From Spirosoma fluviale (lineage in GTDB: Bacteria; Bacteroidota; Bacteroidia; Cytophagales; Spirosomataceae): 64,000 nt of DNA. The translations under genes and the position numbers were made by a program. Numbering within the stretch: position 1 is the first letter of the stretch; every line of letters starts with the position of its first letter. The notes beneath the pieces are model-generated. The model was not told where the DNA came from. It saw only the letters and a list, made by a program, of their open reading frames with translations, and searched no databases. Of the stretch, positions 4,980 through 41,947 are shown piece after piece. The DNA lies in the NCBI GenBank assembly GCA_945906795.1, contig CAMDRO010000001.1, positions 82,591 to 146,590 on the forward strand. The letters are read 5' to 3'.

Positions 4980-4986
4980 TTATAAC

Positions 4987-5649: not shown

Positions 5650-5728
5650 ATTACAAAGGTATGAAAATAATTTACTAAGGTATATTTCTATGGGTATTCC
5701 AATTAACTTTATAAAATAATTTTTTAAT

Positions 5729-7729: not shown

Positions 7730-7730
7730 T

Positions 7731-8627: not shown

Positions 8628-8629
8628 AT

Positions 8630-8932: not shown

Positions 8933-9374
8933 TTTTTTACAACTCTCGGCAGTAATTGTAATCATTGGCTTAGGCTTTTCTTGTAAGAATCAATTAAAAC
9001 AAACTACGTATTATAGCCCAAATTTTAAAGATGGGTCAACTGAAAGGCATGATGGCTTAGGTTTTGAAATCCCTCGAAAATATGAAATAGATGTAGTCTA
9101 TTTTAATGAATCTCCCAAACAGAAATTTGAGATAATCGAACCGCTAAGTCTAACTCAAGAAATTCCACTTGAAGAAAAGCAAACGCAAAATGGTAAAATG
9201 CTTTATCGAGGAAATCATCAAACTGAGAAACAAAATCTCTTGAATAAAATGATTGAATCTGCATTAGCCCTTGGTGCAAGTGCATTAATTGATGTTAAAT
9301 ATCAAGTTTTTAGTACAAGTACAACGACTGGGTATACATTTACTGGTAAAGCGGTTCGTTACGTGTTGAAATAA
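8913..9374 (+). CDS. Hypothetical lipoprotein (YbjQ/heavy-metal-binding-like C-terminus)
   Basis: Lipobox-like ...GLGFSCKN; C-terminal ALALGASALIDVKYQ. Confidence 0.55.
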   Translation: MIQKPFNFLQLSAVIVIIGLGFSCKNQLKQTTYYSPNFKDGSTERHDGLGFEIPRKYEIDVVYFNESPKQKFEIIEPLSLTQEIPLEEKQTQNGKMLYRGNHQTEKQNLLNKMIESALALGASALIDVKYQVFSTSTTTGYTFTGKAVRYVLK

Positions 9375-10770: not shown

Positions 10771-10867
10771 TTGGAAAAGGTAAGAATTAAATTGATTAAG
10801 GATGTTTTTACATTTATTCTATAAAATAAACCGTGTGCAAATTTAAAATTAAAAAAAAGAAGGTATA

Positions 10868-10890
10868 TTGAAAGAATTTTATCCTTTCAA
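10868..10890. promoter_or_regulatory. Inverted repeat upstream of fucP (candidate operator or 5' hairpin)
   Basis: TTGAAAG-N9-CTTTCAA, perfect 7-bp arms, ending about 17 nt before the ATG. Confidence 0.4.
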
Positions 10891-10907
10891 ATAATAAAAA
10901 CAATCCT

Positions 10908-12254
10908 ATGGCATTACCAACCTATGAAAATGAAAATTTAGAGGTATCTCAATCTACTAAAATAAACTACCTAATTCCATTTAGTTTAGTGACTAGCTTA
11001 TTCTTTCTTTGGGGATTGGCCAATAGTTTAAATGGAACATTAGTTAAACAATTTCAAACAGCTCTTGACTTGCAACGTTGGCAAGCCAATATTGTCGAAA
11101 CTGCTTTCTATTTAGGATATTTTATCATGGCACTTCCTGCAGGATATGTAATGAAAAAGTTAGGTTATAAAATGGGGATATTAATAGGATTAATATTATA
11201 TGCAGCCGGTGCGTTTTTATTTTATCCTGCAGCAGAAGTTAGATTGTATTCCTTCTTTTTAGCGGCATTATTTTTAATTGCAAGTGGAATAGCGTTTTTA
11301 GAAACTGCGGCTAATTTATATGTTACGGTATTGGGTGACCCTAAATCAGGGGATTTTAGGTTAAATTTTGCTCAATCGTTTAATGGGATTAGTATCATTT
11401 TAGGACCTGTCATAGGCGGTTTTTTTATATTTTCTGACAAAGAATATAGCCGAGAATTATTAAATAGTCTTCCTGCAGCTGAGGCGGAAGCCATTCGCAT
11501 TTCTCAAGCTAATTCGGTTCAATTACCGTATTTAATTATCGGCATCATAGTTGCCATAGTGGCTGTATTATTTGCCATAACTAAAATGCCTGAAGTAACA
11601 GAAACGACCAATAAGGTTGTTACTCAGACTAAAATAACTATAGCAAGTTTGTTAAAAAACAGGCATTTAACATTAGGGATTATAGCTCAATTTTGTAATG
11701 TAGGGGCTCAAGTATCATTATGGGGTAATTTCGTTGATTTGAAAATTGATTTAGCTAGTGATACAAATTTATGGATTGTTCAAAAAATATATCAAACTAC
11801 TAGTGAAATGTCGCCAACTCAAATAGCAAGTTTTCATGCCTCTTTTGCATTTGTACTCTTTATGTTTGGTAGATTCATTGGTACCTATTTCATGAGTAAA
11901 AATGATTCAAATAAAATTTTGGGAATCTATTCCATCGGGGCTGTGATATCGATTCTTATATCCATTTTTGGAGGAGGAGTGTATGCGCTAGTCGCATTAA
12001 TGATGGTATATTTCTTTCAATCGATAATGTTTCCAACTATATTTGCTTTAGCATGTAAAGACTTAGGTGAAGGTTCTAAATTAGCTTCGTCTTTAATTAT
12101 TATGTCAATAGTAGGAGGGGCTATTGTTCCGCCAATTACTGCAGCATTATTTAAGGTAAGTACTTCTGTAGCTCTTATAATCCCTTTAATGTGTTTTATT
12201 TACATCGTATTTTATTCGTACAGTGGGTATAAATTGCCAGTTAAAAAAATATAA
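10908..12254 (+). CDS. fucP: L-fucose:H+ symporter-type MFS transporter
   Basis: 12-TM MFS; SLFFLWGLANSLNGTLVKQFQTALDL and GPVIGGFFIF typical of FucP. Confidence 0.9.
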   Translation: MALPTYENENLEVSQSTKINYLIPFSLVTSLFFLWGLANSLNGTLVKQFQTALDLQRWQANIVETAFYLGYFIMALPAGYVMKKLGYKMGILIGLILYAAGAFLFYPAAEVRLYSFFLAALFLIASGIAFLETAANLYVTVLGDPKSGDFRLNFAQSFNGISIILGPVIGGFFIFSDKEYSRELLNSLPAAEAEAIRISQANSVQLPYLIIGIIVAIVAVLFAITKMPEVTETTNKVVTQTKITIASLLKNRHLTLGIIAQFCNVGAQVSLWGNFVDLKIDLASDTNLWIVQKIYQTTSEMSPTQIASFHASFAFVLFMFGRFIGTYFMSKNDSNKILGIYSIGAVISILISIFGGGVYALVALMMVYFFQSIMFPTIFALACKDLGEGSKLASSLIIMSIVGGAIVPPITAALFKVSTSVALIIPLMCFIYIVFYSYSGYKLPVKKI

Positions 12255-12583
12255 TGAAAAAATATATTTTATTTTTAGATTTAATTAATGAAGAAAAATT
12301 GATTTTAGAATATATAAATTACCATAAAGAGATTCCCTTGGCCATTAAAAAGAGTATTTTTGATTCTGGAATTATTTCTATGGAAATATATAGGTTTTGT
12401 GACCGATTAGCTATGGAAATTATAGCTAATGAAGATTTCAGTTTTGAACATAAAAATTACTTAGATACGAATAATTCTCATGTGATTGCTTGGGAAAAAC
12501 TCATGTCTACTTATCAAAAAAACATTCCAGGTGCTCCTGAAAATGTTAAGTGGGTTTTGGCCGAAAATATTTTTAAATTATAA
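12254..12583 (+). CDS. L-rhamnose/L-fucose mutarotase-like (RhaM-fold) protein
   Basis: About 109 aa; YINYHKEIPLAIKKSIFDSGIISMEIYRFCDRLAMEI resembles the RhaM family; operon context. Confidence 0.7.
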   Translation: MKKYILFLDLINEEKLILEYINYHKEIPLAIKKSIFDSGIISMEIYRFCDRLAMEIIANEDFSFEHKNYLDTNNSHVIAWEKLMSTYQKNIPGAPENVKWVLAENIFKL

Positions 12584-12586
12584 ATA

Positions 12587-14251
12587 ATGATTACGAAAAG
12601 AAAGGCTTTTCTGCAAATTAATGACGTTGACAATTTATTAGTAGCGTTACAAAATTTGAAAAAAGGCACTGAAATTATTCACAATGGTAACAGTATTATT
12701 TTGCAAGATGATATTGATGCTAAACATAAATTTACCACAGAGACAATTCCAATTAATGGAGAAGCTGTAATGTATGGAGTTTTAGTAGGTATAGCCAAAC
12801 AAGAAATTCCCCAAGGTGGCTTAGTTCATACATTTAATTTGCATCACGCATCACAAGAATTTAAAGGTAAAATCAAAGATTATCATTGGTCTCCACCTAA
12901 TGTCGATCCATGGAAAGAATTATCTTTTAATGGTTACCATAGATCCGATGGCCAAGTAGGCACTCAAAATTTTTGGCTTGTTATTCCTTTAGTATTTTGT
13001 GAGAACAGAAATATTGAATTATTGAAAAATGCTTTTATCAATGGTTTAGGTTTTCAAAAAAATGACCCATTTACAGAGCAAGTAGTTTTATTTAAAAACC
13101 AAATTCAAAATGGAGAAAAGTTAAAAAAGCCTGAATTTAATAAGTCTAAGAAAACGACATTGGTTCATAAAAGTGATTTGTTTAAGAATATAGATGGAAT
13201 AAAATTTTTGACTCATGAGAGTGGTTGTGGAGAAAACAAAGATGAATCAGATAATTTATGTTCATTATTGGCAGGTTATTGCTTGAACCCCAATGTAGGA
13301 GGGATAACCTTATTAAGTTTAGGTTGTCAAAATTCACAAATTAGCTTATTCCAACAAAAATTAAAGGAAAAAGATCCTGATTTTTCTAAGCCATTATATA
13401 TTTTTGAACAGCAACAAGATGAAGGAAGTGGCGTAGAACAAATGTTAAATGAAGTTATTCATAAGACTTTTGAAGGTTTAATCGAGATTAATAAATGTAA
13501 GAGAACTCCTGCTCCATTGTCCAAATTACGTGTTGGGGTCAAGTGTGGTGGCTCAGATGGATTTTCGGGTATTTCTGCTAATCCAGCGATTGGGCATACC
13601 GCCGATTTAATCGTGTCATTAGGTGGAACCGTCATGATTGCTGAGTTTCCTGAATTATGTGGAGTTGAACAGGAACTTCAAAATAGATCAATCAATAGCC
13701 AAGTAGCAGATGATTTTGGACTAATGATGCGGGAATATGCTAAAAGAGCAGCAGCTGTAGGAGCTGGATTTGATATGAATCCTTCACCTGGTAACATTAA
13801 AGATGGATTGATCACAGATGCCATAAAATCAGCAGGGGCGGCAAAAAAAGCAGGATCATCCCCTATAGTAGCCTCCCTAGGATATGGGCAATATGTTACG
13901 AAAAGTGGTTTAAATTTAGTTTGTACCCCTGGAAATGATGTATTAGCTACTACCGGTATGGCTGGGGCTGGAGCTACCATTCAATTGTTTACTACGGGTT
14001 TAGGAACGCCAACAGGAAATCCTATCTGCCCTATGGTTAAATTATCTACGAATACAAGGTTAGCTGAAAAGTTGCCTGAAATTATCGATATCGACTGTGG
14101 ACCAATCATTTCTGGTGATAAATCAGTGGAAGAAGTAGGAGAAGAGGTTTTAAATTACATCATCAAATTAGCTTCAGGTGAAATTAATACCAAAGCAATG
14201 GATTTAGGACAAGATGATTTTATGTTTTGGAGAAGAGGCGTTAAATTATAA
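12587..14251 (+). CDS. UxaA/altronate-dehydratase family sugar-acid dehydratase
   Basis: N-terminal SAF-like domain; FNGYHRSDGQVGTQNFWLV, THESGCGENKDES, KCGGSDGFSGISANPAIG, GNPICPMVKLSTN. Confidence 0.88.
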   Translation: MITKRKAFLQINDVDNLLVALQNLKKGTEIIHNGNSIILQDDIDAKHKFTTETIPINGEAVMYGVLVGIAKQEIPQGGLVHTFNLHHASQEFKGKIKDYHWSPPNVDPWKELSFNGYHRSDGQVGTQNFWLVIPLVFCENRNIELLKNAFINGLGFQKNDPFTEQVVLFKNQIQNGEKLKKPEFNKSKKTTLVHKSDLFKNIDGIKFLTHESGCGENKDESDNLCSLLAGYCLNPNVGGITLLSLGCQNSQISLFQQKLKEKDPDFSKPLYIFEQQQDEGSGVEQMLNEVIHKTFEGLIEINKCKRTPAPLSKLRVGVKCGGSDGFSGISANPAIGHTADLIVSLGGTVMIAEFPELCGVEQELQNRSINSQVADDFGLMMREYAKRAAAVGAGFDMNPSPGNIKDGLITDAIKSAGAAKKAGSSPIVASLGYGQYVTKSGLNLVCTPGNDVLATTGMAGAGATIQLFTTGLGTPTGNPICPMVKLSTNTRLAEKLPEIIDIDCGPIISGDKSVEEVGEEVLNYIIKLASGEINTKAMDLGQDDFMFWRRGVKL

Positions 14252-14259
14252 TATTATTT

Positions 14260-15027
14260 ATGATTTTTTCATTAAAAAACAAAGTTGCGATTATTACAGG
14301 GGGTAGTTCGGGTATCGGAAGAGCTATAGCTATACTTTTTGCTCAACAAGGAGCGGAGGTTCATATATTTGATTTTAAAAGTTCACTAAGTGATGAAACT
14401 ATTGCCGAAGTAAAAAAGTATCAACCTAATTCCAATTTTCATTCAGTAGATATTACAAACGAAGCATTAGTTTTACATGAAATAAGCTTATTTAATACCA
14501 TTAATATTTTAATCAATAATGCAGGGATAGCTCAAATTGGGAATGTAGAAAATACAAGTTCGGAAGACTTTCAGAAAATTTTTGATGTCAATGTAAAAGG
14601 AGCTTTTAACTGTATTAAAGCAGTTATCCCTATTATGGTCAACCATCAATCGGGTGTCATTTTAAATATGGCTTCGGTAGCTTCGTCCGTAGGTATTCCA
14701 GATCGATTTGGATATTCTATGACAAAGGGAGCCATAAAATCTATGACTCAGTCCATCGCCAAAGATTATATTTCAAAAGGGATTCGATGCAATTGTATTT
14801 CTCCAGCCAGGGTTCATACGCCATTTGTGGATGGATTTATTCAGAAAAATTACCCTAATAATCAAGCAGAAATGTACGAAAAACTTTCTGCTTCTCAACC
14901 TATAGGAAGGATGGCTAAACCTATAGAAATTGCTCATTTGGCTTTATATTTATGTTCTGATGAAGCATCTTTTGCTACAGGTTGCGACTACCCATTAGAT
15001 GGAGGTTTTTTATACTTAAACAATTAA
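14260..15027 (+). CDS. SDR family oxidoreductase, candidate 2-keto-3-deoxy-L-fuconate dehydrogenase
   Basis: GGSSGIGRAIA, NNAG, YSMTKGA catalytic motif; BDH2-like GIRCNCISPARVHTPF. Confidence 0.8.
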   Translation: MIFSLKNKVAIITGGSSGIGRAIAILFAQQGAEVHIFDFKSSLSDETIAEVKKYQPNSNFHSVDITNEALVLHEISLFNTINILINNAGIAQIGNVENTSSEDFQKIFDVNVKGAFNCIKAVIPIMVNHQSGVILNMASVASSVGIPDRFGYSMTKGAIKSMTQSIAKDYISKGIRCNCISPARVHTPFVDGFIQKNYPNNQAEMYEKLSASQPIGRMAKPIEIAHLALYLCSDEASFATGCDYPLDGGFLYLNN

Positions 15028-15032
15028 ATACC

Positions 15033-15707
15033 ATGAAATTAAAACTAATTTTCACCTTGTTATTAACATCAACTCTATTTTCGTTCAAAGCTGATAATCC
15101 AATTAAAATTTTATTTTTTGGCGATTCCATTACACAAGCGGGTATCGGAAAAACAGGCTATATAACTAAAATGGCAGAAATGCTTTCTTCCAAAGGTTTA
15201 TCAGGAAAATATGAATTAATTGGGGCAGGTATAGGCGGCAACAAGATATATGATTTGTACCTACGACATGAAGAAGATGTGATTGCCAAGAAACCTAATG
15301 TTGTTGTGATTTACATTGGAATTAATGACGCATGGCATAAAACTTCCTCTAGAACAGGAACAGATTATGACAAGTTTGAAAAGTTTTATCATGCTTTAAT
15401 TCAGAGGATACAAAAATCTGGCAGTCAAGTAGTTATCTGTACGCCTACATTAATTGGTGAGAAGTATGACTCAACCAATGAGAATGATGGGGATTTGAAT
15501 TATTTTTCAACGGTTATACGAAAAATAGCTTTAGATGAAAAATGCAAATTGATTGATTTACGTAAGGCTTTTATCGAGTATGAAACTAAATTTAATACTG
15601 AAAATAAAGCGTTAGGTATTTTAACTTCAGATCGAGTTCACTTAAATGAAGCAGGAAATATTTTCTTAGCGGAAGTTATGTGGGATGTATTAAAAGACAT
15701 AAAATAA
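15033..15707 (+). CDS. SGNH/GDSL hydrolase (secreted)
   Basis: FFGDSITQAG block I, IGINDAWH block III, DRVHLNEAG block V; ATG at 15033 gives a signal peptide, so this is preferred over the ORF-track start. Confidence 0.85.
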   Translation: MKLKLIFTLLLTSTLFSFKADNPIKILFFGDSITQAGIGKTGYITKMAEMLSSKGLSGKYELIGAGIGGNKIYDLYLRHEEDVIAKKPNVVVIYIGINDAWHKTSSRTGTDYDKFEKFYHALIQRIQKSGSQVVICTPTLIGEKYDSTNENDGDLNYFSTVIRKIALDEKCKLIDLRKAFIEYETKFNTENKALGILTSDRVHLNEAGNIFLAEVMWDVLKDIK

Positions 15708-15712
15708 AAAAG

Positions 15713-16558
15713 ATGAAATTAGTAAGAATTGGAAAGCTTAATGAAGAAAAACCAGCTGTATTTGTCGATAACAAATACTTTGATGTTTCAGATTATATCC
15801 ATGATTTCAATGAATCGTTTTTTGAAAACGATGGCATTAAAAAATTAGAAAATATCGTTTTAACTAAGACATTAAACGAAATACAACATCCAGAAAGGAT
15901 TGGTTCTTGTGTAGCTCGCCCATCAAAAATTATATGTGTAGGTTTAAACTATATAGATCATGCAAAGGAAACCGGAGCTGAAATACCGAAAGAACCCATA
16001 TTGTTTTTTAAAAGTACCACTGCATTAAATGGCCCATTTGATGATGTAGTCATACCTAAGAATTCTTCGAAAACAGATTGGGAGGTTGAGTTAGCCATTG
16101 TAATTGGTAAAAAAGCTCAATATGTATCTGAAGAACAAGCTTATGATTATATCGCAGGATATTGTTTGCATAATGATTATTCCGAAAGAGAGTTTCAATT
16201 AGAAAGGGGAGGAAATTGGTCAAAAGGAAAAGGTTGTGATACATTTGCTCCCTTAGGGCCATTCTTGGTTACTAAAGATGAAATTAAGGATGTTCATGAT
16301 TTAAATATGTGGTTAGATGTCAATGGCAAGAGATTTCAAGTGAGCAATACGAATCAGTTAATATTTAATGTACCCCAAGTGGTATCTTATATTTCTCAAT
16401 TTATGACATTGTTGCCAGGGGATGTAATTAGCACAGGTACTCCGCATGGTGTTGGACTTGGTTTAAAGCCACCTGTGTTTTTACAATCAGGAGATTGTGT
16501 AACTTTAGGTATGGATGGCTTGGGAGAGCAGAAGCAAATATTAGTCGCTTATTCTTGA
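15713..16558 (+). CDS. Fumarylacetoacetate hydrolase family protein, candidate 2,4-diketo-3-deoxy-L-fuconate hydrolase
   Basis: KIICVGLNYIDHAKETG, DWEVELAIVIGK, GDVISTGTPHGVG motifs; start at 15713 preferred. Confidence 0.85.
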   Translation: MKLVRIGKLNEEKPAVFVDNKYFDVSDYIHDFNESFFENDGIKKLENIVLTKTLNEIQHPERIGSCVARPSKIICVGLNYIDHAKETGAEIPKEPILFFKSTTALNGPFDDVVIPKNSSKTDWEVELAIVIGKKAQYVSEEQAYDYIAGYCLHNDYSEREFQLERGGNWSKGKGCDTFAPLGPFLVTKDEIKDVHDLNMWLDVNGKRFQVSNTNQLIFNVPQVVSYISQFMTLLPGDVISTGTPHGVGLGLKPPVFLQSGDCVTLGMDGLGEQKQILVAYS

Positions 16559-17388
16559 TGATTGATTCACATCAACATTTTTGGACTTATCAGGTAAATC
16601 GAGATGCTTGGATTACGGAAGATATGGCAAGAATTCGTAAAAATTTTTATCCCAACGATTCACATGAATTATTTGTCAATAATGATATAGATTGTTGCAT
16701 TGCCGTGCAGGCAGATTCATCTGAAGATGAAACATTGTTCTTGATTTCATTAGCTGAACAATCTAAATTCATTAAAGGTATTGTTGGTTGGGTCGATTTG
16801 CAAGCTAAAAATATAGAAAGTCGCCTAACTTACTTTTCTCAATTTGAACTAATTGTTGGGTTTAGGCATGTAGTTCAGTCAGAAACGGATCCTGATTTTT
16901 TAGTTAGACCTGATTTTTTAAGAGGAGTGCAATTACTTGAATCGTTTGATTTTACTTATGATTTGTTAATTTATCCGAATCAATTAAATGCTGGAATTGA
17001 ATTTTGTAAGAAAAATTCGAATCAAAAGATTGTATTAGATCATTTGGCTAAGCCACCTATTAAAACTGGGGATATTTCAGAATGGAAAAAGTATATTAAA
17101 AAGTTCAAAGAATTAGAAAACGTATCTGCTAAAATTTCCGGATTAATTACAGAGGCCGAATGGTTTAATTGGAATGAAAAAGACATTTTTGATATCATTG
17201 AAATATCTTTAGACGTATTTGGCAGAGATCGATTGATGTTCGGTACTGATTATCCTGTTGTACTGGTAGCAGAAGAATTGTCGAGTTGGATTAGTACATT
17301 TAAGAAATCTATAGCTAAATTATCTTCTGATGAAATAAAAAAAATCACTATTGATAATTGTGTTCAATTTTATAAAATAGAATTATAA
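16558..17388 (+). CDS. Amidohydrolase (COG3618), candidate L-fucono-1,5-lactonase
   Basis: MIDSHQHFW N-terminus, FRHVVQ, LDHLAKPPI, MFGTDYPV motifs; start at 16558 overlaps the preceding stop. Confidence 0.85.
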   Translation: MIDSHQHFWTYQVNRDAWITEDMARIRKNFYPNDSHELFVNNDIDCCIAVQADSSEDETLFLISLAEQSKFIKGIVGWVDLQAKNIESRLTYFSQFELIVGFRHVVQSETDPDFLVRPDFLRGVQLLESFDFTYDLLIYPNQLNAGIEFCKKNSNQKIVLDHLAKPPIKTGDISEWKKYIKKFKELENVSAKISGLITEAEWFNWNEKDIFDIIEISLDVFGRDRLMFGTDYPVVLVAEELSSWISTFKKSIAKLSSDEIKKITIDNCVQFYKIEL

Positions 17389-18170
17389 TGAACTTAGGAT
17401 TAAAAGAGAAAGTAATCATAGTCACAGGAGGAGCAAAAGGTATTGGTGAAGGAATAAGTGAAAGTTTAGCACTTGAAAGCGCCATGGTAGCAATTGTAGG
17501 TCGAAACGAAATTGACAATTTAAAATGTATTGAAAAAATTCAAGCCACAGGAGGACTGGCTTTTTCATTTATCGCCGAATTAAGTGATCCTAATGAATGT
17601 AAAAGAGTTATCGAGGATATTTACACTAAATTTGGAAGAATCGATGGATTAGTCAATAATGCTGGAATAAATGATGGCGTGGGCTTAGCTAACGGCACCT
17701 ATGAAAAATTTCTTCAATCATTACATTCGAATTTAATTCACTATTATTTATTGGCGCAGGCTTGCTTACCGTATTTAATTAAGACAAAAGGTTCCATTGT
17801 TAACATAGGTTCGAAAGTAGCAGAAACTGGCCAGGGCGGCACATCCGCTTATGCAGCTTCTAATGGCGGTAGAAATGCGTTAACTCGCGAATGGGCCGTT
17901 GAGTTATTGCCGCATGGTATACGAGTTAATGCAGTCATTGTAGCAGAGTGTTATACACCCATGTATGATAAATGGGTAAAAACATTACCTAATCCTGCAA
18001 AAACTCTTATTGAAATAGAAAATCGGATTCCATTAGGAAAGCGTATGACAACAAAAGAGGAGTTGGGTGCGATGGTCACTTTTTTATTATCGAGTAAATC
18101 TAGTCACACTACGGGCCAATTAATTCATGTAGATGGTGGTTATGTACATTTAGACCGTTCTTTAATTTGA
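17388..18170 (+). CDS. SDR family oxidoreductase, candidate L-fucose dehydrogenase
   Basis: TGGAKGIGEGIS, NNAGI, YAASNGG; AECYTPMYDKWVKTLPNP segment recalled from the HSD17B14/fucose-dehydrogenase-like group. Confidence 0.8.
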   Translation: MNLGLKEKVIIVTGGAKGIGEGISESLALESAMVAIVGRNEIDNLKCIEKIQATGGLAFSFIAELSDPNECKRVIEDIYTKFGRIDGLVNNAGINDGVGLANGTYEKFLQSLHSNLIHYYLLAQACLPYLIKTKGSIVNIGSKVAETGQGGTSAYAASNGGRNALTREWAVELLPHGIRVNAVIVAECYTPMYDKWVKTLPNPAKTLIEIENRIPLGKRMTTKEELGAMVTFLLSSKSSHTTGQLIHVDGGYVHLDRSLI

Positions 18171-18174
18171 TCTT

Positions 18175-19257
18175 ATGGATTATAGTCATATTGAAAGCCC
18201 GGGGTTAATTGTATTTCCTGAAATAGTGAAATCAAACATTAACCTGGCTATTGACATGGTTGAAGGAAATGTAGATCGATTAAGGCCCCATATAAAGACT
18301 CATAAAACCCAAGAGGTCAATGAATTATTCATGGACGCCGGGATATTTAAATTTAAATGCGCTACGATTGCTGAAGCAGAATTGTTAGCTATATCGAATG
18401 TAAAAGATATATTATTATCTATTCAACCTACCGGAACTAGCCTTACAAGATTTTTAGAATTATTACTTAATTATCAGAATAGCCAATTTTCATGTCTTAT
18501 TGATGATTATAATGCTGCTGATAAAATTAATGATTTAGCCATAAAACATCATGTGAACATTCCTATTTTTATTGATGTGAATGTTGGCATGAATAGGACG
18601 GGCATTATTCCTAAAGAAGCATTTACATTGATCGAGAAAATTTCTAAAAATTTAAACCATCTTAAAATAAAAGGATTACATGCCTATGATGGACATATTC
18701 GCGATGTTAATATACAAAAGCGTATTGAACATGTTCAACATGATTTTATTGATTTTTATGCATTAATTGATAAAATAGATACAGACACGTATGAATTAGT
18801 AGTCGGTGGAACGCCTAGCTTTTTAGTTCATCGTACAAACAATCGCTTTGTTTGCAGTCCTGGAACCTTTGTATTTTTTGATATTGGTTATAGTAATTTG
18901 TTTCCTGAAAATACTTTTAAAATGGCTGTTCAACTAATTTCAAGAGTCATTTCTAAACCCACAAATTCGACTATTTGCATTGATTTAGGCCATAAATCGG
19001 TTGCAGCAGAAAATTCAATAGATAATCGAGTTCGGTTTATTGATTTTCCACATTGGACGCTTAAAAGTCAAAGTGAAGAACATGGAATTATAGAAGTTCA
19101 AGATCATTCGAACATTGAAATTGGTCAAATTATTCGCATGTATCCATATCATATTTGTCCTACAGTGGCGCTTCACCAATATTTGCAGGTCATTGAAGGT
19201 GACAAATTAAAAGGGGAGTGGATTGTAAAAGCCCGTAATCGTAAAATAAACATATAA
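18175..19257 (+). CDS. D-threonine aldolase-like (alanine racemase N-terminal fold) PLP enzyme
   Basis: LRPHIKTHKTQEV PLP-lysine motif; VNVGMNRTGI; C-terminal HICPTVALHQ metal-site motif. Confidence 0.85.
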   Translation: MDYSHIESPGLIVFPEIVKSNINLAIDMVEGNVDRLRPHIKTHKTQEVNELFMDAGIFKFKCATIAEAELLAISNVKDILLSIQPTGTSLTRFLELLLNYQNSQFSCLIDDYNAADKINDLAIKHHVNIPIFIDVNVGMNRTGIIPKEAFTLIEKISKNLNHLKIKGLHAYDGHIRDVNIQKRIEHVQHDFIDFYALIDKIDTDTYELVVGGTPSFLVHRTNNRFVCSPGTFVFFDIGYSNLFPENTFKMAVQLISRVISKPTNSTICIDLGHKSVAAENSIDNRVRFIDFPHWTLKSQSEEHGIIEVQDHSNIEIGQIIRMYPYHICPTVALHQYLQVIEGDKLKGEWIVKARNRKINI

Positions 19258-19258
19258 T

Positions 19259-20326
19259 ATGCTACTCTTTGACGCTCATTTAGACTTAAGCATGAATGCG
19301 CTAGAATGGAATAGAGATTTGCGCTCCTCTATATCTGAAATAAATTCTAGAGAATATGGAATGACAGATAAATTTGACAGAGGCAATGCAACGGTGTCAT
19401 TAGAAGAGCTCCGAAAAGGTAATATAGGCATGGTGGTGGCCACTCAAATAGCGAGATACGTTTCAAAATCATCTGTTTTACCTGGTTGGAATTCTCCTGA
19501 ACAGGCTTGGGCACAAACGCAAGGTCAATTAGCTTATTATAAGGCATTAGAATCATTAGGAGAGCTATCTCCCATTAGAAATGCGGTCGAATTAGAAAAC
19601 CATATAAAATATTGGAATAGTAGCAAGGATATTAAAAAAAGCATTGGGTATATATTAAGTTTAGAAGGTGCTGATTCAATAGTTTCTGTAGAATATTTAG
19701 ATATAGCATACAGTTATGGATTAAGAGCTTTAGGACCAGCTCATTATGGCCCTGGCAGATATGCCCAAGGAACAAATGCCACAGGCGGTTTAGGACTAAA
19801 TGGTAAAGATTTATTAGTAAAAATGGAATCCTTAGGGATCATCTTAGATGCTACACATTTATGTGATGACAGTTTTTGGGAAGCCATGGAAATTTTTAAT
19901 GGATCCGTTTGGGCAAGTCATCAAAATAGCAGATCGCTCGTAAATCATAATCGTCAATTCACGGATGAACAATTTAAAGAAATTATTCGACGGGGAGCTG
20001 TGATTGGTTTACCTTTAGATACTTGGATGATGGTACCTAATTGGGTTAGAGGTGTATCGGATCCGATCACCATGAAAGTAGATTTAAATGTAATGATAGA
20101 TCATCTCGTACATATTTGTGACCTTGCAGGCAATACAAATCATGTTGGAATTGGTACCGATTTAGATGGTGGATTTGGTACTGAACAATCACCCATGGAT
20201 ATTAAAACCATAGCTGACTTACAAAAAATCCCTGATTTGTTATTGAAAAGAGGTTTTTCTAATGACGATATCACTAAAATTTGCCATCAAAATTGGATTG
20301 ATTTTTTAATGAATCATTGGAGTTAA
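19259..20326 (+). CDS. Membrane dipeptidase family (M19) peptidase
   Basis: DAHLDLSMNALEWNRDLR, ILSLEGAD, DATHLCDDSFWEAM, NHVGIGTDLDGGFG. Confidence 0.88.
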   Translation: MLLFDAHLDLSMNALEWNRDLRSSISEINSREYGMTDKFDRGNATVSLEELRKGNIGMVVATQIARYVSKSSVLPGWNSPEQAWAQTQGQLAYYKALESLGELSPIRNAVELENHIKYWNSSKDIKKSIGYILSLEGADSIVSVEYLDIAYSYGLRALGPAHYGPGRYAQGTNATGGLGLNGKDLLVKMESLGIILDATHLCDDSFWEAMEIFNGSVWASHQNSRSLVNHNRQFTDEQFKEIIRRGAVIGLPLDTWMMVPNWVRGVSDPITMKVDLNVMIDHLVHICDLAGNTNHVGIGTDLDGGFGTEQSPMDIKTIADLQKIPDLLLKRGFSNDDITKICHQNWIDFLMNHWS

Positions 20327-24583: not shown

Positions 24584-25375
24584 TTATATATTGGGTCTGT
24601 AAATTTGAAATCCTATTATTTTCTTATTTTTCAATATGTATTTATCAATAGTTAATTCTGAAATGCAAACTATTTTTTTTTCTTGAGAAGCATGAAGGAT
24701 ATACTTTTTATTGTTTTTAATATAAACAAAACCAACATGATTGAAATCCAAGTCATTACGCGAGGATAAAAATGCTATGACATCTCCGTTTTTGATTAAG
24801 TTATCAATTTCAGGCTGATGAATAGAATCAAAGTAGTATATATATTTTTGGCTAATTGATTTTACTATTTTGACCAATTTAGAATTATCCATATACTTAT
24901 TATTTACATGTGTAGATAAAAAGTTAATGTTTTTTTGAATATGATGCGAGTTTAGCTCATTATTAATAGGCAGGAGAAATTTCAGCTTCACAAGTTTTTC
25001 TAATCCAGAAGTTAAATAATGATTTCGAGTTTCATAGCTGACTGAATCGATGTATCGAATATTAATTAAATTTTCCCTAAACTTAATATTTGAACCATCC
25101 GAATAATACAAGGCTAAAACATTTTCTAAATACGTAACACAATCGAAATCGTTGAATGAAAAATAAAGTTTCTCTGGATTTGATTTCGATAATCTATAGG
25201 CTAAATAGGGGGCTCCCATAAAATATTCACCAATCAGCAACGGATTTTTCAAAGAAATACTATTTTTAACAACATTCCTTAGTTTAAATGAAATGCCCTT
25301 AAAGGATTGTGCATTAAGAAAATACATGGGTGCCCACAACAAAAAAAACACCATTTTGTATATTACTTTTTTCAT
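24584..25375 (-). CDS. DUF1460 / N-acetylmuramoyl-L-alanine amidase-like protein
   Basis: Signal peptide; FNDFDCVTYLENVLAL catalytic Cys region and HVGFVYIKNNKKYILHAS. Confidence 0.75.
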   Translation of the reverse strand: MKKVIYKMVFFLLWAPMYFLNAQSFKGISFKLRNVVKNSISLKNPLLIGEYFMGAPYLAYRLSKSNPEKLYFSFNDFDCVTYLENVLALYYSDGSNIKFRENLINIRYIDSVSYETRNHYLTSGLEKLVKLKFLLPINNELNSHHIQKNINFLSTHVNNKYMDNSKLVKIVKSISQKYIYYFDSIHQPEIDNLIKNGDVIAFLSSRNDLDFNHVGFVYIKNNKKYILHASQEKKIVCISELTIDKYILKNKKIIGFQIYRPNI

Positions 25376-27084
25376 TAAATTGCTCTAAATATTAATGTAC
25401 TATTAGGAAAAATATCTACCTGCATATTTTCAGAAATCCCATATTTATCAGACAATAGGGTGGGTGGAGTAAATAATTTTTCAATCTCCCAAATTATCTG
25501 ATAAGTACCCATTAACTCAAAAGCTAAATCAGGGATCTTAATTTTAAAACTCAAAGTGTCCGTTGGGTGAAAATTATTTATAAACAATAATTTTTCATCA
25601 TTGGAATAACGTAAATAGGAGTAAACAAATTTACTTGGGTAACTTTCATTTTGAGCATATTGCAAGTCAAAAAATTGACCTATTTGAACCGCAGTTGAAT
25701 TCTTGGCAAACTTAAATAATTGTTGGTAAAAATAATCTAATTCTATTTCCTGACTGGTTAATAATTGATTATTCAAGGCGCCATGATTAAACCATCGTTG
25801 GTGCGTATCGATTCGCCAAAAATCAAACATGGTAGTTCGATCATCCGCATCATTAAAACCTTCAATTTCATTAGCTTTTTCACCAAATTCTTGTCCAGAA
25901 TAAATCATAAAAGGTCCTCCATGTAATGTGGCGGTAATCAACATCGCTGGGATTGTGGACCAAATATTATGTGCTGCAAAACCGGCAGAATTGATTCTTG
26001 TTTCATCGTGATTCTCTAAAAATCGCAACATTTTATTAGAAAATTCACCGGATTCTTGTTGCCAAACTCTAGTGATAGAACTTGTGTGTGCCTCATTATT
26101 TTGTTCCATTAAATTTCTTAATGAATCATATAAACCTACTTTGTCATACAAATAATCAAAATGACCCTTGTAGATATAATTAGCATATAAGTTAGGCTGG
26201 TATATTTCAGCTATAAAAATCAATTCGGGATTAATCACTTTTATTTTAGGAATTACAAAGGCCCAAAATTCTATGGGAACCATTTCAGCCATATCGCAAC
26301 GAAATCCATCCACCCCCAAATTTGTCCAATAAGTTAATACTTCCAGCATTTTATACCAAGTATTGGGTATTGGGTCAAAATGAATATGCCCCTCATTATG
26401 ATAATCTATGCCATAATTTAATTTAACCGTTTCAAACCAATCGTGAATAGTAGGCTGAGCAGAAAATACATTATTTCCACTGGCTTTCGCTGGTATTTCA
26501 ACATAAGCCTGAGTATTTTCATCAATTTCAGCGTGATAGGGTACGGTAAATTGTGTCCCAGGCAAATAATAAAAATTATTTTGTGGTGAAAATTCCACAT
26601 CATTTCGATCATTAAAACCAAAATCAACCACTCCTTCAGGTTTATTATCAGATTGATAATTTCTAGCTAAATGATTCGGCACAAAATCCAGTATAATTTT
26701 TAATTTATTTTCATGAATCCGTTTAACCATTAGATTGAATTCATCTAAACGATTTTCTACATTGCTAGCTAAAAAAGGGTTTACATCAAAATAATCTTTG
26801 ATGGCAAATGGTGAACCACAATTTCCCTTAACGATCGATGAGTGATCTAAAGGAATACCCAACTTGGTATAATCTTCCTTAGTGGCATGTTCAATAATTC
26901 CAGTGGTGTATAAATGCGTATAACCTTTGGCATATAAACAAACTAACGCCTTATTCGAAACATCATTAAATTTAGTGGTACCATTGGTTAGAGAATTTCC
27001 ATTCTTTCGAGGATTTAGATTTGTATTTCCCCAAAGATGAAACATCATCTGGTAAATAATTAATTTATTTGATTCGATTGGCAT
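25375..27084 (-). CDS. Alpha-amylase family (GH13) protein
   Basis: LDFVPNHLA, GVDGFRCDMAEMVP, FIAEIYQ, FLENHDETR: the four GH13 conserved regions. Confidence 0.9.
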   Translation of the reverse strand: MPIESNKLIIYQMMFHLWGNTNLNPRKNGNSLTNGTTKFNDVSNKALVCLYAKGYTHLYTTGIIEHATKEDYTKLGIPLDHSSIVKGNCGSPFAIKDYFDVNPFLASNVENRLDEFNLMVKRIHENKLKIILDFVPNHLARNYQSDNKPEGVVDFGFNDRNDVEFSPQNNFYYLPGTQFTVPYHAEIDENTQAYVEIPAKASGNNVFSAQPTIHDWFETVKLNYGIDYHNEGHIHFDPIPNTWYKMLEVLTYWTNLGVDGFRCDMAEMVPIEFWAFVIPKIKVINPELIFIAEIYQPNLYANYIYKGHFDYLYDKVGLYDSLRNLMEQNNEAHTSSITRVWQQESGEFSNKMLRFLENHDETRINSAGFAAHNIWSTIPAMLITATLHGGPFMIYSGQEFGEKANEIEGFNDADDRTTMFDFWRIDTHQRWFNHGALNNQLLTSQEIELDYFYQQLFKFAKNSTAVQIGQFFDLQYAQNESYPSKFVYSYLRYSNDEKLLFINNFHPTDTLSFKIKIPDLAFELMGTYQIIWEIEKLFTPPTLLSDKYGISENMQVDIFPNSTLIFRAI

Positions 27085-27193: not shown

Positions 27194-28204
27194 TTATTTA
27201 ATAAAATCGATATCGGGAGTTGATTGATCCACTAAAGAAACTCCACCTCGATCTTTTCTGGCTATTCTTGAATACAGGCCAATTTCTTGACTAAATATGA
27301 AAGTGAAAAATAATTTTACAAAAGACGTATGATAGTGTAAGTTATTGTAAAATTCAGGGGCAATATTTTTCAATTTAGGCAAATTATTCCATGGGATGGA
27401 TGGCATATCATGATGTTCATTGTGGTATCCAACATTCATATTAATTGAATTTAAACCGCCATAATAACTAAAGGTTTCTTGTTTTTTATCTAAAACTAAA
27501 AAATGCTCCTGAATCCACCTAGCCCCAAGCGGATGTAGTCCCACAGAAAATAAAAAACTAAATCCTAAATAAGCTAACGCTGACCAACCCCAAAAATAAA
27601 CGATAGCTGTATCAAATAATAGTTGAACGGCGATATTCAAAATGACATATCGGTCAATGATGGCCAATTCAACACATCGATACGTTCGGATGCCTTGAAA
27701 AAAAGGAAATAAGGCTAACCATATCATCTTGCCGATAAAGTAATTATTAATCAATTTAGCTTCCCAATAATCAGGTAAATCGGCATCAAGCTCATGTACA
27801 CCTTGAAATGAATGATGTTTTAGATGAAAATTTTTGAAAGAAATAGCTGTAGGCGCTAAAGAGGGAAGGTTTGCTATGATTCCAGCAAAAACATTCCATG
27901 ATTTCTTTTTATAAATTAAATTATGAGCCGATTCATGAATACAAACAAATAAAGTATGTACTGGAAAAGCTCCTATAAACCAGGCGGTTCCTAAGATGAT
28001 CCACCAAGAATAATCTTTTATAAAAAAGGCGATACCAATTTGTAAAAAAACGCAGGTTAAAATCCAATACATGGTATTTGGATTCTTGCCAATTAGTTTT
28101 TTTACTTCAGGGTGTTTTTTGATGATTTCACGTGTTCTATTACGATGTGGCTCGGAATCATTAACCCAAATAAAATCTTTTACTTCCTCCATTTTTAATA
28201 TCAT
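27194..28204 (-). CDS. Fatty acid desaturase superfamily, DEGS/DES1-like (sphingolipid delta-4 desaturase-like); start may be the internal ATG at 28192
   Basis: Three His boxes [24 protein letters not shown]-terminal [28 protein letters not shown] and C-terminal [24 protein letters not shown] look colinear with eukaryotic DEGS1. Confidence 0.88.
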   Translation of the reverse strand: [336 protein letters not shown]

Positions 28205-28343: not shown

Positions 28344-30230
28344 ATGGGAAAAATTATTGGAATTGATTTAGGTACCACCAACTCATGTGTGGCGGTTATG
28401 GAAGGTAGCGAGGCTGTTGTTATTGCGAATTCTGAAGGACGAAGAACAACACCTTCAATCGTTGCATTTTTGGATAATGGTGAACGCAAAGTAGGGGATC
28501 CTGCAAAACGACAAGCCATTACAAATCCACAAAATACTATTTCGTCTGTAAAAAGATTTATGGGCAAAAAATACTCAGAAGTTAGTTCAGAGTTAAAAAC
28601 TATTTCATATTCTGTTGAGAAAGGAAATAACGATACATCACGAGTAAGAATTGGTGATCGACTTTATACTCCTCAAGAAATATCAGCTCAGATTTTGACT
28701 AAAATGAAGCAAACAGCTGAAGATTATTTAGGACAAACCGTAACAGAAGCTGTTATCACGGTTCCGGCTTATTTTAATGATGCTGAACGTCAAGCTACCA
28801 AAGAGGCTGGTCAAATTGCTGGACTTGAAGTTAAAAGAATTATCAATGAACCTACAGCAGCTGCTTTAGCCTACGGAGTTGACAAGAAAGGACAAGATAT
28901 GAAAATAGCTGTCTTTGATTTAGGTGGAGGTACTTTCGACGTATCTATTTTAGAATTAGGAGATGGAGTATTTGAAGTGAAGTCGACCGATGGCGATACC
29001 CATTTAGGTGGAGATGATTTTGATCAAGTAATTATTAACTGGCTTGCAGAAGAATTTATTTCTGATGAAAATATAGATCTACGTAAAGATCCGATGGCGC
29101 TCCAACGGTTAAAAGAAGCCGCTGAAAAGGCAAAAATTGAATTGAGTTCTAGTGCCACAACAGAAATCAATTTACCTTATATTATGCCTGTTGATGGTAT
29201 TCCAAAACACTTAGTTTGTTCATTAACACGAGCTAAATTTGAAAAATTAGCAGATAGTTTAATTCGCCGTACATTAGAACCTTGTAAGCGTGCTATGAAA
29301 AACGCTTCTTATACTAATGCGGATATAGACGAAGTTATTTTAGTTGGTGGCTCAACACGTATCCCTAGAATTCAAGAAGAAGTTGAGAAATTCTTTGGCA
29401 AAAAGCCATCAAAAGGAGTTAATCCTGATGAAGTGGTAGCTATAGGTGCTGCTATTCAAGGTGGAGTTTTAACAGGAGAAGTTAAAGATGTTTTATTATT
29501 AGATGTGACACCTTTATCTTTGGGCATTGAAACTATGGGTGGTGTATTCACTAAATTAATAGAATCAAATACCACGATACCAACAAAAAAATCGGAGACT
29601 TTCTCTACCGCAGCTGATAACCAACCTTCCGTTGAACTTAATGTGTTGCAAGGAGAAAGACCTATGGCTAAGGATAATCGTTCTTTAGGTCGTTTTCATT
29701 TAGATGGATTACCACCGGCGGCTCGAGGAATTCCTCAAATCGAAGTAACTTTTGACATCGATGCTAATGGAATATTGCAAGTTTCAGCTAAAGAAAAAGG
29801 TACGGGTAAGGAGCAAAAAATTAGAATTGAAGCTTCTAGCGGTTTGACCGATGAAGAAATTGAAAAAATGAGGAATGAGGCAAAAGCAAATGAAGCAACG
29901 GATAAGATTGAAAAAGATCGCGTTGAAAAAATCAATCAAGCAGATGCTTTAATTTTTCAATCTGAAAAGCAATTGAAAGAATATGGAGAAAAGTTATCAG
30001 AAGGTAACAAAACAGCCATAGAAACAGCTTTATCTGAATTGAAGATTGCTCATGCATCTCAAGATTTAACTTCGATTGACTCAGGCATCGAAAAGTTGAA
30101 TACTGCATGGACTGCGGCTTCACAAGAAATGTATGCAAATACGCAAGAGGGTGGTGATCAAACTACCCAAAATACGGAAACACCCTCAGATGATTCAGCT
30201 GAAGACGTTGCTTTTGAAGAAGTAAAATAA
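28344..30230 (+). CDS. dnaK: Molecular chaperone DnaK
   Basis: [21 protein letters not shown], complete Hsp70. Confidence 0.99.
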
Positions 30231-37725: not shown

Positions 37726-40556
37726 TAAAAACCTAAATCTAAGACTAGTGGATAAAATTCATATTGATTTAATCGAGGCTTATATAAAAGCCTGATTCCA
37801 AGTTCAAAACCTTGTGAAAAGCGTAAAACATGGAAATTAGATGAAACATCTAAGCCCACCGATTCATAAGATTTATACAATTCTGATTTTTTAAAATCGG
37901 GAATACCTTGGCTTAAATCCATAAATACATTTCCCTTAAATCGGGTAAAATACAATAAGCGTCCCAATTTTATCGACGTATTAGCAATGGGAAATTTATA
38001 ATCTAATGACAAATTTGTCCAGCGCTGATTAACCTCATAAAGATAGCCTCTTGTAAAAACAAAAGGACTATTAAAGTTATAATTCCCCTTCATGTCTTGT
38101 TGGAATGATGCTTTTATCAATACCCCATGATTTTTAAAGAAACCAGGCAAATAAATTTTCGCTTGCATTCCCCATAATTCGGACTGCAGAGATTGTTTAA
38201 AAGGCATCCCATTCCAATAAAAATTCAATTGATACCCTAATCTAGATTGAAGATCCCAAAGAGATTTATTCAATAATTTAGAATAATTAATTTGGTAGAT
38301 CATGGACGAATAGGTCCCATCGAAAGCTTCAGATTTATATCGCAAGGGAAGATTATAACCGTCCACCTTAAATATTGAATAGGTACTTGACACATATAAT
38401 TGTTCTTGGAACGCTCCACGAGTAAGTAACAATGGAATCCGAATGCCAATATCCATTTTAGTTTGATTCCATTGATCCGATCTTAAACTATCCAAAGGGC
38501 TTTTTTTATCAATATAAAGGGATGTATTTCTAGGACCTTGCTGGAAAGAAAAATCCAAGACGGGAAACCAACCTTGATATGATGCCCGGATGTATTTAGT
38601 TCCGGTTTGCTCACTTGCATCATAAATATAACCCATTCCAATTTGGAGTGTATTGGTCAAATTTTTTGACAAAAGACCTAAATCCAATTTATTGAATTGA
38701 GAATTTATAAGGGGACCCCAGGCATATGGATTAAGTAAATTCCAACGACTATACGAAGTCACTGCAAAATTCTCCTGTTTAATCTCACGGGGAGCCACCG
38801 CTGAATGATCAATAAAATTAATTGAGTGAGATTCATTTACCCGCCCTACACCAATTTGATTTCCAGCTGCGGAATAATTAGAAAAAACAAAAGACTCTGA
38901 TGTTCCATTTAAAAAAGAAATAGAATAAGCGCCAAACTGAGTTTTGGTTACATAGGATAATGAATTGTTCTTAAAATTCCAACGGGCTAATTGATCCACT
39001 TGGCCTACGGGCAAATTAAAATACACAAAATCATCCTGTATAAAAGTAGCTGCTATATTATTTGAACCAAAATCACGTCGAGCAATCACTTGTTTCAACA
39101 AATAATTATAAATAACTATTTCTTTATGGCCATTATGAAGTGAAATGTAGGACAATAATCCACCTGAAGATATTCTGGGTTGGATTACCTGAACAAAGGA
39201 ATCAAAACGAATGCTGTCGATCAATACTTTTGTCTCCTTCTCAAGAATTTTTATCATAGATTCCCCATTATTCTGCAATTCTAAATAGGATACGTACTTA
39301 GAATCCGGACTAATACTTGGACATATCCATTTTTTATGATCGCTCCAAAATGTTTTTAAATGACGCCTAAGATCATAAAAAACTATTTTAGTATGTTGTT
39401 TTTGAGTCCATCTTGGGTTAAACAGTATTTCCGACCAAACTACAAATTGATCCGAAGCTGATAGCATATTACTTGGATAAACAGGACCTAATACACACAA
39501 TTTTCTTTCTTTAAAATTTTCAATCTCAACTAATGAGGGGATATCTTGAAAGCTTGATTTGATGGTGACGACTTTGCCATTCCCCATATTTTGCGGATAG
39601 TCATAGCTTGTAAATCCACTTTTGATTTTAGGTGAAATAATAGTGTAAGAAGAATCAACATCTTTTTGTCTTAGCGTATCCAATTGTTTTTGCAAGATCT
39701 GTTCGACATATTGGTCAATTTGTAAACCAAATTTCTTTTTTACTTGGTTCGAAAATGAAAATATGCCAGGTTTATTCAGTGTATTTTGCCATAATGAGCC
39801 AATCTCTTTAAATCCATTATTCGAAGTTAATTTATGAGTAATAAACTGGCCAAAAACATAATGATTAGGCATATTTTCCTTAAAGTTCCTAGACATTAAT
39901 TTGCTGTAATTTGGGACACCATATTGCCATAAATACGCATTTAACGTGTTGGAAAACTGTGGTATGTTGCCTCTACCAATCTGATTATTTAATCGTGTTT
40001 CGGTTTCTATGGCATCGCCTTCCCATAACCAGTTAGGAATCATCAAATTACTATAAAGAGCTTGGCCATTGCTCCCCCAAAATAGTTTGAAAATACGACT
40101 GATTCCCGTGGTAGCTAATTCATTTTGATATATGTGCCTAGTTTCGTGAATAGCTAATAAATTGAGCCAATCGTTCGTCGATTGAAGACTTGCTTCTTGG
40201 CTAGGGGTCGTATAAAATTCGCCTCTAGGAGCAAAAAGACTTATAAACCCATTTGAAATTAATCCTTGATTTTGCAGAATAATAGACCATTGATGATCTA
40301 TACTTTTATTCGATATTTTTGCAGCTGGCCATTGGATTGACAGTGATCTAGCCGTGGAAAAAGCTAAAGAATCAGCTCCATCAGGATAAATAATGCGAAC
40401 AGCTTTACCTAGGATATTAATCTGTTTAAAGCGTAAATTAGATGAATTTTGCTCTAATATTGGGTATAATATTTGTGAAAATCCAGAAAATGAAATTACA
40501 ATTAAAAAGGAAAAAATAATTCTTAAAACCATTTTAAGACTTGCTCGATGAGCCAT
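37725..40556 (-). CDS. Secreted/outer-membrane protein: gluzincin-like HExxH domain, TolB/WD40-like propeller, C-terminal barrel-like region
   Basis: Signal peptide; LLAIHETRHIYQNEL...PNWLWEGDAIETE; SPDSKYVSYLEL propeller repeats; alternating aromatic C-terminus. Confidence 0.65.
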   Translation of the reverse strand: MAHRASLKMVLRIIFSFLIVISFSGFSQILYPILEQNSSNLRFKQINILGKAVRIIYPDGADSLAFSTARSLSIQWPAAKISNKSIDHQWSIILQNQGLISNGFISLFAPRGEFYTTPSQEASLQSTNDWLNLLAIHETRHIYQNELATTGISRIFKLFWGSNGQALYSNLMIPNWLWEGDAIETETRLNNQIGRGNIPQFSNTLNAYLWQYGVPNYSKLMSRNFKENMPNHYVFGQFITHKLTSNNGFKEIGSLWQNTLNKPGIFSFSNQVKKKFGLQIDQYVEQILQKQLDTLRQKDVDSSYTIISPKIKSGFTSYDYPQNMGNGKVVTIKSSFQDIPSLVEIENFKERKLCVLGPVYPSNMLSASDQFVVWSEILFNPRWTQKQHTKIVFYDLRRHLKTFWSDHKKWICPSISPDSKYVSYLELQNNGESMIKILEKETKVLIDSIRFDSFVQVIQPRISSGGLLSYISLHNGHKEIVIYNYLLKQVIARRDFGSNNIAATFIQDDFVYFNLPVGQVDQLARWNFKNNSLSYVTKTQFGAYSISFLNGTSESFVFSNYSAAGNQIGVGRVNESHSINFIDHSAVAPREIKQENFAVTSYSRWNLLNPYAWGPLINSQFNKLDLGLLSKNLTNTLQIGMGYIYDASEQTGTKYIRASYQGWFPVLDFSFQQGPRNTSLYIDKKSPLDSLRSDQWNQTKMDIGIRIPLLLTRGAFQEQLYVSSTYSIFKVDGYNLPLRYKSEAFDGTYSSMIYQINYSKLLNKSLWDLQSRLGYQLNFYWNGMPFKQSLQSELWGMQAKIYLPGFFKNHGVLIKASFQQDMKGNYNFNSPFVFTRGYLYEVNQRWTNLSLDYKFPIANTSIKLGRLLYFTRFKGNVFMDLSQGIPDFKKSELYKSYESVGLDVSSNFHVLRFSQGFELGIRLLYKPRLNQYEFYPLVLDLGF

Positions 40557-41947
40557 TTAGTTTTAAAAGTGTAAGGAGGATAAAAATTCTTTAACAGATT
40601 AGTATATTGTTTTAAAACTGATTTTTGATTTGAAAATTCTTGAAAACCAAATTTACCCCCTGATTTACCAATACCTGAATTATTGACTCCTCCAAAGGGT
40701 AGATTAGAATGACCAAACTGTATCAGGCAATCATTGACCACACTAGTTCCTGAACTCGTATTACTTAAAATATAATCTGAAAATGAGGTGTCTTTTGAAA
40801 AAACATAGAGCGCCAAAGGCTTTTCCTCATGTAATAATTTCGTTACCACCTCATTCTCATCTTTGAACGTTAATATGGGTAAAATAGGTCCAAATATTTC
40901 TTCCTGCATAATTAACATGTCATCCGTGCAATTCGCTAGAAGCGTGGGACCAATAAAACACGAGGCTTCATCTATTTCACCTCCATAAATAATGGTAGCT
41001 CCTTTAGATTTGGCATCATCCAATAAATGACATATTCGACTAAAATGTTTCGTATTAACGATTCGAGCGTAGTCGCTACTATTTTGAATGCCCTTATTAT
41101 CTGAATTATAAAATAACTTGATCGTATCTTCTAATGCGCCAATAAAAGAATAATATACTTTTTCATGTACATATAAATAATCCGGTGCGATACATGTTTG
41201 GCCATTATTCAAAAATTTACCCCAGGCGATTTTTTTAGCCGTCGAAATTATGTCCACATTCGAATCAATAATAGCAGGTGATTTGCCCCCTAATTCAAGT
41301 GTAACTGAGGTTAAATGCTTAGCCGCAGCCCGCATAACTACCTTGCCAATAGCAGGACTACCTGTAAAAAAGATATGGTCAAATTTTTGATCCAACAAAT
41401 AAGTGGACACGGCGGCATCCCCTTCAAATACGGCCACTTCGCTTTCATCAAACAAAGACAATATCATTTTTTTTATGAACGATGATGTGTTAGGACTTAA
41501 TTCAGACGGCTTTAAAATAACGGCATTGCCTGCAGCAATAGCATGAACAAGCGGATTAATCGCTAAATTAAATGGATAATTCCATGGTGCTATAATTAAA
41601 CAAAGACCTTTAGCTTCTGACATGATGTAACCCTGGGTTCCTAATAATAAGAGTGGCGTCCCTACTTTTTGGGGCTTCATCCAAGATTTCAAATGGGTCA
41701 TTATATGAGCTATTTCTCTTTTCACACCTAGCAACTCGCCTATAATTACCTCCGAACTGGGCTTTTTAAAATCAGAAAACAAGGCGTCGTATAAATCTTG
41801 TTTATGCGAGAGCATATATTTTTCGATTGTTTTTAATTTAGCTATGCGCTCTTCTGGGCTAGAATTTTTTAACCGTTGGCGTGATGATTTTTGTAAGAAA
41901 AAAACTTTATCAATGGCCTGTTCCATACTAAATGCTTCGTTCATCAT
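40523..41947 (-). CDS. Aldehyde dehydrogenase family protein (ALDH3-like)
   Basis: IIAPWNYPFNLAINPLVHAIAAGNAVILKPSE, FFTGSPAIGK, LELGGKSP, NNGQTCIAPDY. Confidence 0.92.
   Translation of the reverse strand: MMNEAFSMEQAIDKVFFLQKSSRQRLKNSSPEERIAKLKTIEKYMLSHKQDLYDALFSDFKKPSSEVIIGELLGVKREIAHIMTHLKSWMKPQKVGTPLLLLGTQGYIMSEAKGLCLIIAPWNYPFNLAINPLVHAIAAGNAVILKPSELSPNTSSFIKKMILSLFDESEVAVFEGDAAVSTYLLDQKFDHIFFTGSPAIGKVVMRAAAKHLTSVTLELGGKSPAIIDSNVDIISTAKKIAWGKFLNNGQTCIAPDYLYVHEKVYYSFIGALEDTIKLFYNSDNKGIQNSSDYARIVNTKHFSRICHLLDDAKSKGATIIYGGEIDEASCFIGPTLLANCTDDMLIMQEEIFGPILPILTFKDENEVVTKLLHEEKPLALYVFSKDTSFSDYILSNTSSGTSVVNDCLIQFGHSNLPFGGVNNSGIGKSGGKFGFQEFSNQKSVLKQYTNLLKNFYPPYTFKTKWLIEQVLKWF

Follow-up and report, generated by a model that had tools for sequence, protein, structure and literature searches.

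DEGS1 and DEGS2 desaturate or hydroxylate the C4 position of an N-acylated long-chain base, and DEGS2-type enzymes, which belong to the same family, are bifunctional. The Δ4 double bond of ceramides is usually regarded as eukaryotic, and the sphingolipids of bacteria as dihydro forms. Flavocristamide A and the Salinibacter sulfonolipid, both natural sulfonolipids, have an allylic double bond adjacent to the hydroxyl of the base. A bacterial membrane desaturase/hydroxylase acting on ceramide has been described in Caulobacter. This enzyme, CCNA_00202, is a ceramide fatty-acyl hydroxylase of the DesA family and differs from DEGS enzymes in that its target is the amide-linked acyl chain and not the base (PMC11324152). 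No desaturase of the capnine base was found in the sulfonolipid literature examined. Similarly, no description of a bacterial DEGS homologue was found in the literature searched, which mostly excluded subscription papers and is therefore weak evidence of novelty.

The window analysed here is the whole 64,000-nucleotide stretch of DNA. From matching gene coordinates, the host's genus is taken as the genus holding Aquirufa aurantiipilula, and its family as that holding Spirosoma and Fibrella (Spirosomataceae). The open reading frame that the first-pass annotation had placed, with no strand given, at 27194-28204 is real. It lies on the minus strand, the plus strand being interrupted by stops throughout, and encodes a protein of 336 residues, P0001. 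The relevant features are as follows.

27194..28204, minus strand: DES/DEGS-family protein P0001, predicted membrane desaturase/hydroxylase, 336 aa (Pfam, BLASTP, homologue alignment)
28190-28192, minus strand: Met5 codon, possible true start (orthologue alignment)
28076..28180, minus strand: Lipid_DES (PF08557) N-terminal domain, residues 9-43, family signature (Pfam)
27329..28009, minus strand: FA_desaturase (PF00487) domain, residues 66-292 (Pfam)
27923..27937, minus strand: His box 1, HESAH, residues 90-94 (sequence, homologue alignment)
27812..27826, minus strand: His box 2, HLKHH, residues 127-131 (sequence, homologue alignment)
27410..27424, minus strand: His box 3, HNEHH, residues 261-265 (sequence, homologue alignment)
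28344..30230, plus strand: dnaK, divergent upstream neighbour, context only (retained in the Aquirufa-type clade)
25375..27084, minus strand: alpha-amylase-family gene, 109 bp downstream of DEGS, context only (ORF position)

Orthologue alignments begin at approximately residue 5 of P0001, and Met5 may thus be the true start. The terminal stretches quoted in the first-pass annotation are present letter for letter, but KDRG, where it had the protein end, is followed by 16 further residues, to ...DIDFIK. The His residues of all three boxes are invariant among the 29 homologues compared. Strong purifying selection acts on the gene, with a dN/dS of 0.038 against its counterpart at locus L041 (92.5% amino-acid and 86% nucleotide identity), and an orthologue is present in 9 of 10 genomes searched within the host's genus. 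Aquirufa aurantiipilula and A. nivalisilvae have the orthologue. Coordinates equate L041 with genome G501, L045 with G407 and L072 with G374. The contig that carries L041 (CAMDJW010000001.1) is titled Spirosoma fluviale; the DEGS encoded there shares 92% identity with the Aquirufa-type form and is distant from that of the type strain (L081), and the entry is probably a mislabelled MAG.

The DEGS gene of the window is solitary: neither SulA nor any lipid gene is linked to it. In the Aquirufa-type clade the adjacent dnaK is conserved beside DEGS at 14 loci, while the alpha-amylase-family gene is not retained there in Aquirufa loci. The aldehyde dehydrogenase at 40523-41947, proposed earlier as relevant to sphingoid-derived aldehydes, is a generic member of its family located 12 kb away, outside the neighbours conserved with DEGS, and the proposed link gained no support.

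Both family domains of P0001 score well above the Pfam cut-offs, with 60.3 bits for PF08557 (cut-off 23) and 75.5 bits for PF00487 (cut-off 29.7). BLASTP against human DEGS1, which like DEGS2 was entered by hand and is not a database record, returned 39% identity over 319 residues (E = 4e-76), nearly full length. P0001 and the two hand-entered human proteins share both domains in the same order, the three His boxes and a colinear sequence at 38-39% identity, which upholds both the homology proposed in the first-pass annotation and the colinearity with animal DEGS1 that it had noted. In contrast, P0001 lacks the N-terminal Met-Gly of the hand-entered DEGS1, which starts MGSRVS, and displays GARWIQEH at the site where DEGS1 has SGHFIAEH. 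Other membrane desaturase-like proteins of the host genome show only short scraps of similarity, the best of 26 residues (E = 0.003). Judged by these comparisons, P0001 is a member of the DES/DEGS family and groups with it, not with the genome's acyl-lipid desaturases. The family tree had a midpoint root and no outgroup, and included the two hand-entered eukaryotic sequences.

A sequence search of the PDB with P0001 revealed no relative among solved structures. The AlphaFold2 model (pTM 0.82, mean pLDDT 78) is considered right in its predicted fold, but confidence in the active-site loops is low (pLDDT <50). The solved structure that best matches the model is a chain of 370 residues from the plastid motor complex 8xks (TM 0.61), with FtAlkB and human stearoyl-CoA desaturase ranking lower. 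In a structural search of viral models only generic giant-virus desaturases matched.

Of 398 genomes sampled across the phylum, 41 have PF08557 above cut-off, against none of 14 controls, and the DEGS gene is therefore not rare in the phylum. A scan of named genomes retrieved at least 570 confirmed relatives, the best among the matches listed belonging to Aquirufa, Arcicella, Pseudarcicella, Spirosoma, Fibrella, Hymenobacter, Mucilaginibacter, Chitinophaga and Saprospiraceae MAGs. The sister clade of the P0001 clade comprises Saprospiraceae and other MAGs, 65-69% identical to P0001 (node support 100/99). Orthologues of this sister clade lie within gene strings containing serine palmitoyltransferase (SPT) and ceramide genes at five Bacteroidota loci (L064, L065, L066, L067 and L069) and at L080, on a contig labelled Acidobacteriota that is possibly mis-binned, in contrast to the solitary window gene in its SPT-less, SulA-containing genome. 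The order in L069 is an FA_hydroxylase (PF04116, FA2H-like), SPT, a 373-residue GNAT protein, an NAD-dependent epimerase-type reductase and DEGS, continuing with myo-inositol-1-phosphate synthase, PgpA, GtrA, a large outer-membrane-type protein, PIP synthase and a PAP2 protein. Against the NCBIfam SPT model NF047600 (equivalog cut-off 640), the scores are 640.9 for L069, 647.0 for L066, 648.7 for L064 and 639.6, just under the cut-off, for L080. The PIP synthase reaches 361 with NF052561 (NCBIfam cut-off 350), and the PAP2 protein scores 316 with the phosphoinositol dihydroceramide synthase model, below its cut-off of 480. Close homologues of the GNAT protein adjoin SPT in the SPT-positive genomes compared, which fits a putative bacterial ceramide synthase. 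The L069 string (positions 3952-16557) and those of L064, L065, L066, L067 and L080 have the appearance of a complete ceramide-to-inositol-phosphoceramide cluster. No alpha-oxoamine synthase was found near DEGS in more distant families (L141-L160) or in Hymenobacter, Mucilaginibacter and Chitinophaga.

The SPT-linked and SPT-less DEGS clades are cleanly distinguished at only four alignment positions, which suggests that the chemistry is probably the same in both. Since sister-clade copies reside in ceramide clusters and so few positions separate the groups, the bacterial DEGS family very likely acts on N-acyl long-chain bases. The same evidence bears on a reading in which P0001, as a generic lipid desaturase or hydroxylase, moved from long-chain bases to ester-linked acyl chains or another substrate. 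The absence of linkage to lipid genes in the window would suit such a shift, as would the diverse roles of FA_desaturase-fold relatives, with weak sub-threshold matches of P0001 to the arginine hydroxylase GntB and the carotene ketolase CrtW. However, P0001 retains the DES-specific N-terminal domain, its sister clade occupies ceramide operons with only those four clean differences, and the host genome has separate acyl-desaturase-like proteins, making this shift of substrate quite unlikely.

The host genome holds only three alpha-oxoamine synthases: KBL, BioF and a cysteate acyltransferase (SulA/CapB). The KBL, on contig C82, adjoins a threonine-dehydrogenase-like gene and scores 696 bits with TIGR01822 (cut-off 493); the BioF-like protein, on C37, adjoins a BioD-like gene. 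The third, at C4:28142-29377, matches the Alistipes SulA structure 7u7h at 604 bits, the cysteate acyltransferase 28eh at 546 and the SPT 3a2b at 233. One clear active-site difference distinguishes SulA from SPT, with Lys281 in place of Ala (PMC9304779). The C4 protein aligns as ...QTYAKALPM against ...FSASM of SPT, with a Lys in diagnostic column 281. Because this protein is SulA-like and has Lys281, the host possesses the condensing enzyme of the sulfonolipid (capnine) pathway and not that of sphingolipids. No match to the cysteate synthase model TIGR03844 was found in the host, but the model is archaeal-type and the result thus uninformative.

No SPT was found in the host genome (94.7% complete, 100 contigs), and none above the equivalog cut-off among the genomes of its genus, most of which are 98-99% complete. 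A search for spt in the genome, as the first-pass annotation had proposed, and in the genus thus came back empty, an outcome that it had itself named as refuting, and the Δ4-unsaturated ceramides it had suggested for this organism are not supported, SulA being present instead. Its broader connection to ceramide survives in part: close relatives of P0001 do belong to complete ceramide operons, but ceramide is not supported as the substrate in this host. P0001 could nevertheless be a dihydroceramide Δ4-desaturase here too if SPT had escaped detection or fell within a gap of the assembly, if SulA also accepted serine, or if ceramide were taken up. Its DES family membership, the sister-clade copies in ceramide operons and the incompleteness of an assembly in 100 contigs are compatible with such a role. 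It is improbable, given that SPT is missing from the genus and from all 45 DEGS-positive genomes of the family, and that the ceramide-synthase-like GNAT adjoining SPT elsewhere is missing as well. The host has no close homologue of this GNAT and only a 28% paralogue. Distant paralogues (26-28%) occur in SulA-only genomes, at C6:37272-38252 of the host (G000) and at C23:565732-566850 of G374, the latter approximately 10 kb from SulA. These are candidate N-acyltransferases of the sulfonolipid pathway.

Among 121 genomes of the host's family, DEGS is present in 45, SPT in 26 and both in none. Fisher's test of this exclusion, which ignores phylogeny, gives p = 1.2e-6 by genome and 0.034 by genus (13 versus 7 of 36 genera). 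SulA is encoded in 120 of the 121 genomes, and DEGS thus sits on a SulA-only background in this family. As SulA is nearly universal there, its co-occurrence with DEGS alone carries no information. Elsewhere in the phylum, DEGS is accompanied by SPT-like enzymes only in families f17, f35 and f43 and by both SPT-like enzymes and SulA in f4 and f24; its presence in genomes with SPT-like enzymes only means that the DEGS family has no general tie to sulfonolipids. Phylum-wide co-occurrence was set aside as evidence: every one of the 41 DEGS-positive genomes has at least one of the two enzyme types, SulA or SPT-like, yet the same holds for an estimated 385 or so of the 398 overall. Eight genomes of genera g192 and g203 (G417, G428, G441, G455, G478, G487, G503 and G511) have two SulA-type proteins each, the second copy being 57-62% identical to the query.

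SPT is absent from the host, unlike the setting of DEGS1 and DEGS2, and SulA/CapB is the only long-chain-base synthase, which points to capnine as the host base. The reading slightly favoured for P0001 is therefore a putative Δ4-desaturase or C4-hydroxylase of N-acylcapnine, a sulfonolipid, and not of ceramide, with substrate, reaction and regiochemistry all at the level of prediction. Weighing against it are the solitary position of the gene, the near-universality of SulA in the family, the modest genus-level p value, the genomes elsewhere in the phylum that combine DEGS with SPT-like enzymes and lack SulA, and the 94.7% completeness of the assembly. P0001 would be an integral membrane, O2-dependent and probably di-iron enzyme acting at C4/C5 of an N-acylated long-chain base. 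Hydrogen abstraction at C4, dependent on O2 and an electron donor, would yield a 4,5 double bond or a 4-hydroxyl group, as in DEGS1 and DEGS2. With capnine as base, the product would be 4,5-unsaturated or 4-hydroxylated N-acylcapnine, and the allylic double bond of flavocristamide A and of the Salinibacter sulfonolipid would match this product. A product restricted to the 4-hydroxy base on the same N-acylcapnine substrate, as expected of a DEGS2-like C4-hydroxylase, is somewhat unlikely. It draws on the established bifunctionality of DEGS2-type enzymes, and the two outcomes are inseparable from sequence alone. In sphingolipid-making relatives the same enzyme would be used on (dihydro)ceramide. 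By extension, there is an even chance that DEGS serves the sulfonolipid pathway in SPT-less Spirosomataceae (Aquirufa, Arcicella, Spirosoma and Fibrella) and that the sister clade modifies ceramides for inositol phosphoceramide.

The presence of DEGS across Bacteroidota, in ceramide/IPC-type operons or in sulfonolipid-only genomes, predicts unsaturated bacterial ceramides and sulfonolipids that could be sought by mass spectrometry in cultured strains. Clusters of the L069 type predict unsaturated, 2-hydroxylated bacterial inositol phosphoceramides. Sulfonolipids are bioactive, as exemplified by the choanoflagellate rosette inducer RIF-1 (PMC3463246), and an enzyme editing their base would thus make structure-activity questions genetically testable.

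In the same midpoint-rooted tree, the hand-entered human DEGS1 and DEGS2 cluster with the bacterial clade L002-L006 (support 100/99), apart from all other bacterial sequences. This grouping prompts the question whether genes passed between bacteria and eukaryotes; such exchange is possible and is offered as a lead only. The DEGS proteins of L002, L003, L004 and L006 (family f24) are 43-49% identical to human DEGS1 and come from hosts that encode a SulA-type as well as an SPT-like enzyme. Elsewhere in the window, positions 9340-20326 likely constitute an L-fucose catabolic locus, with genes for an alpha-L-fucosidase, an MFS sugar transporter, an altronate-dehydratase family protein, SDRs, a fumarylacetoacetase-like protein and an amidohydrolase.
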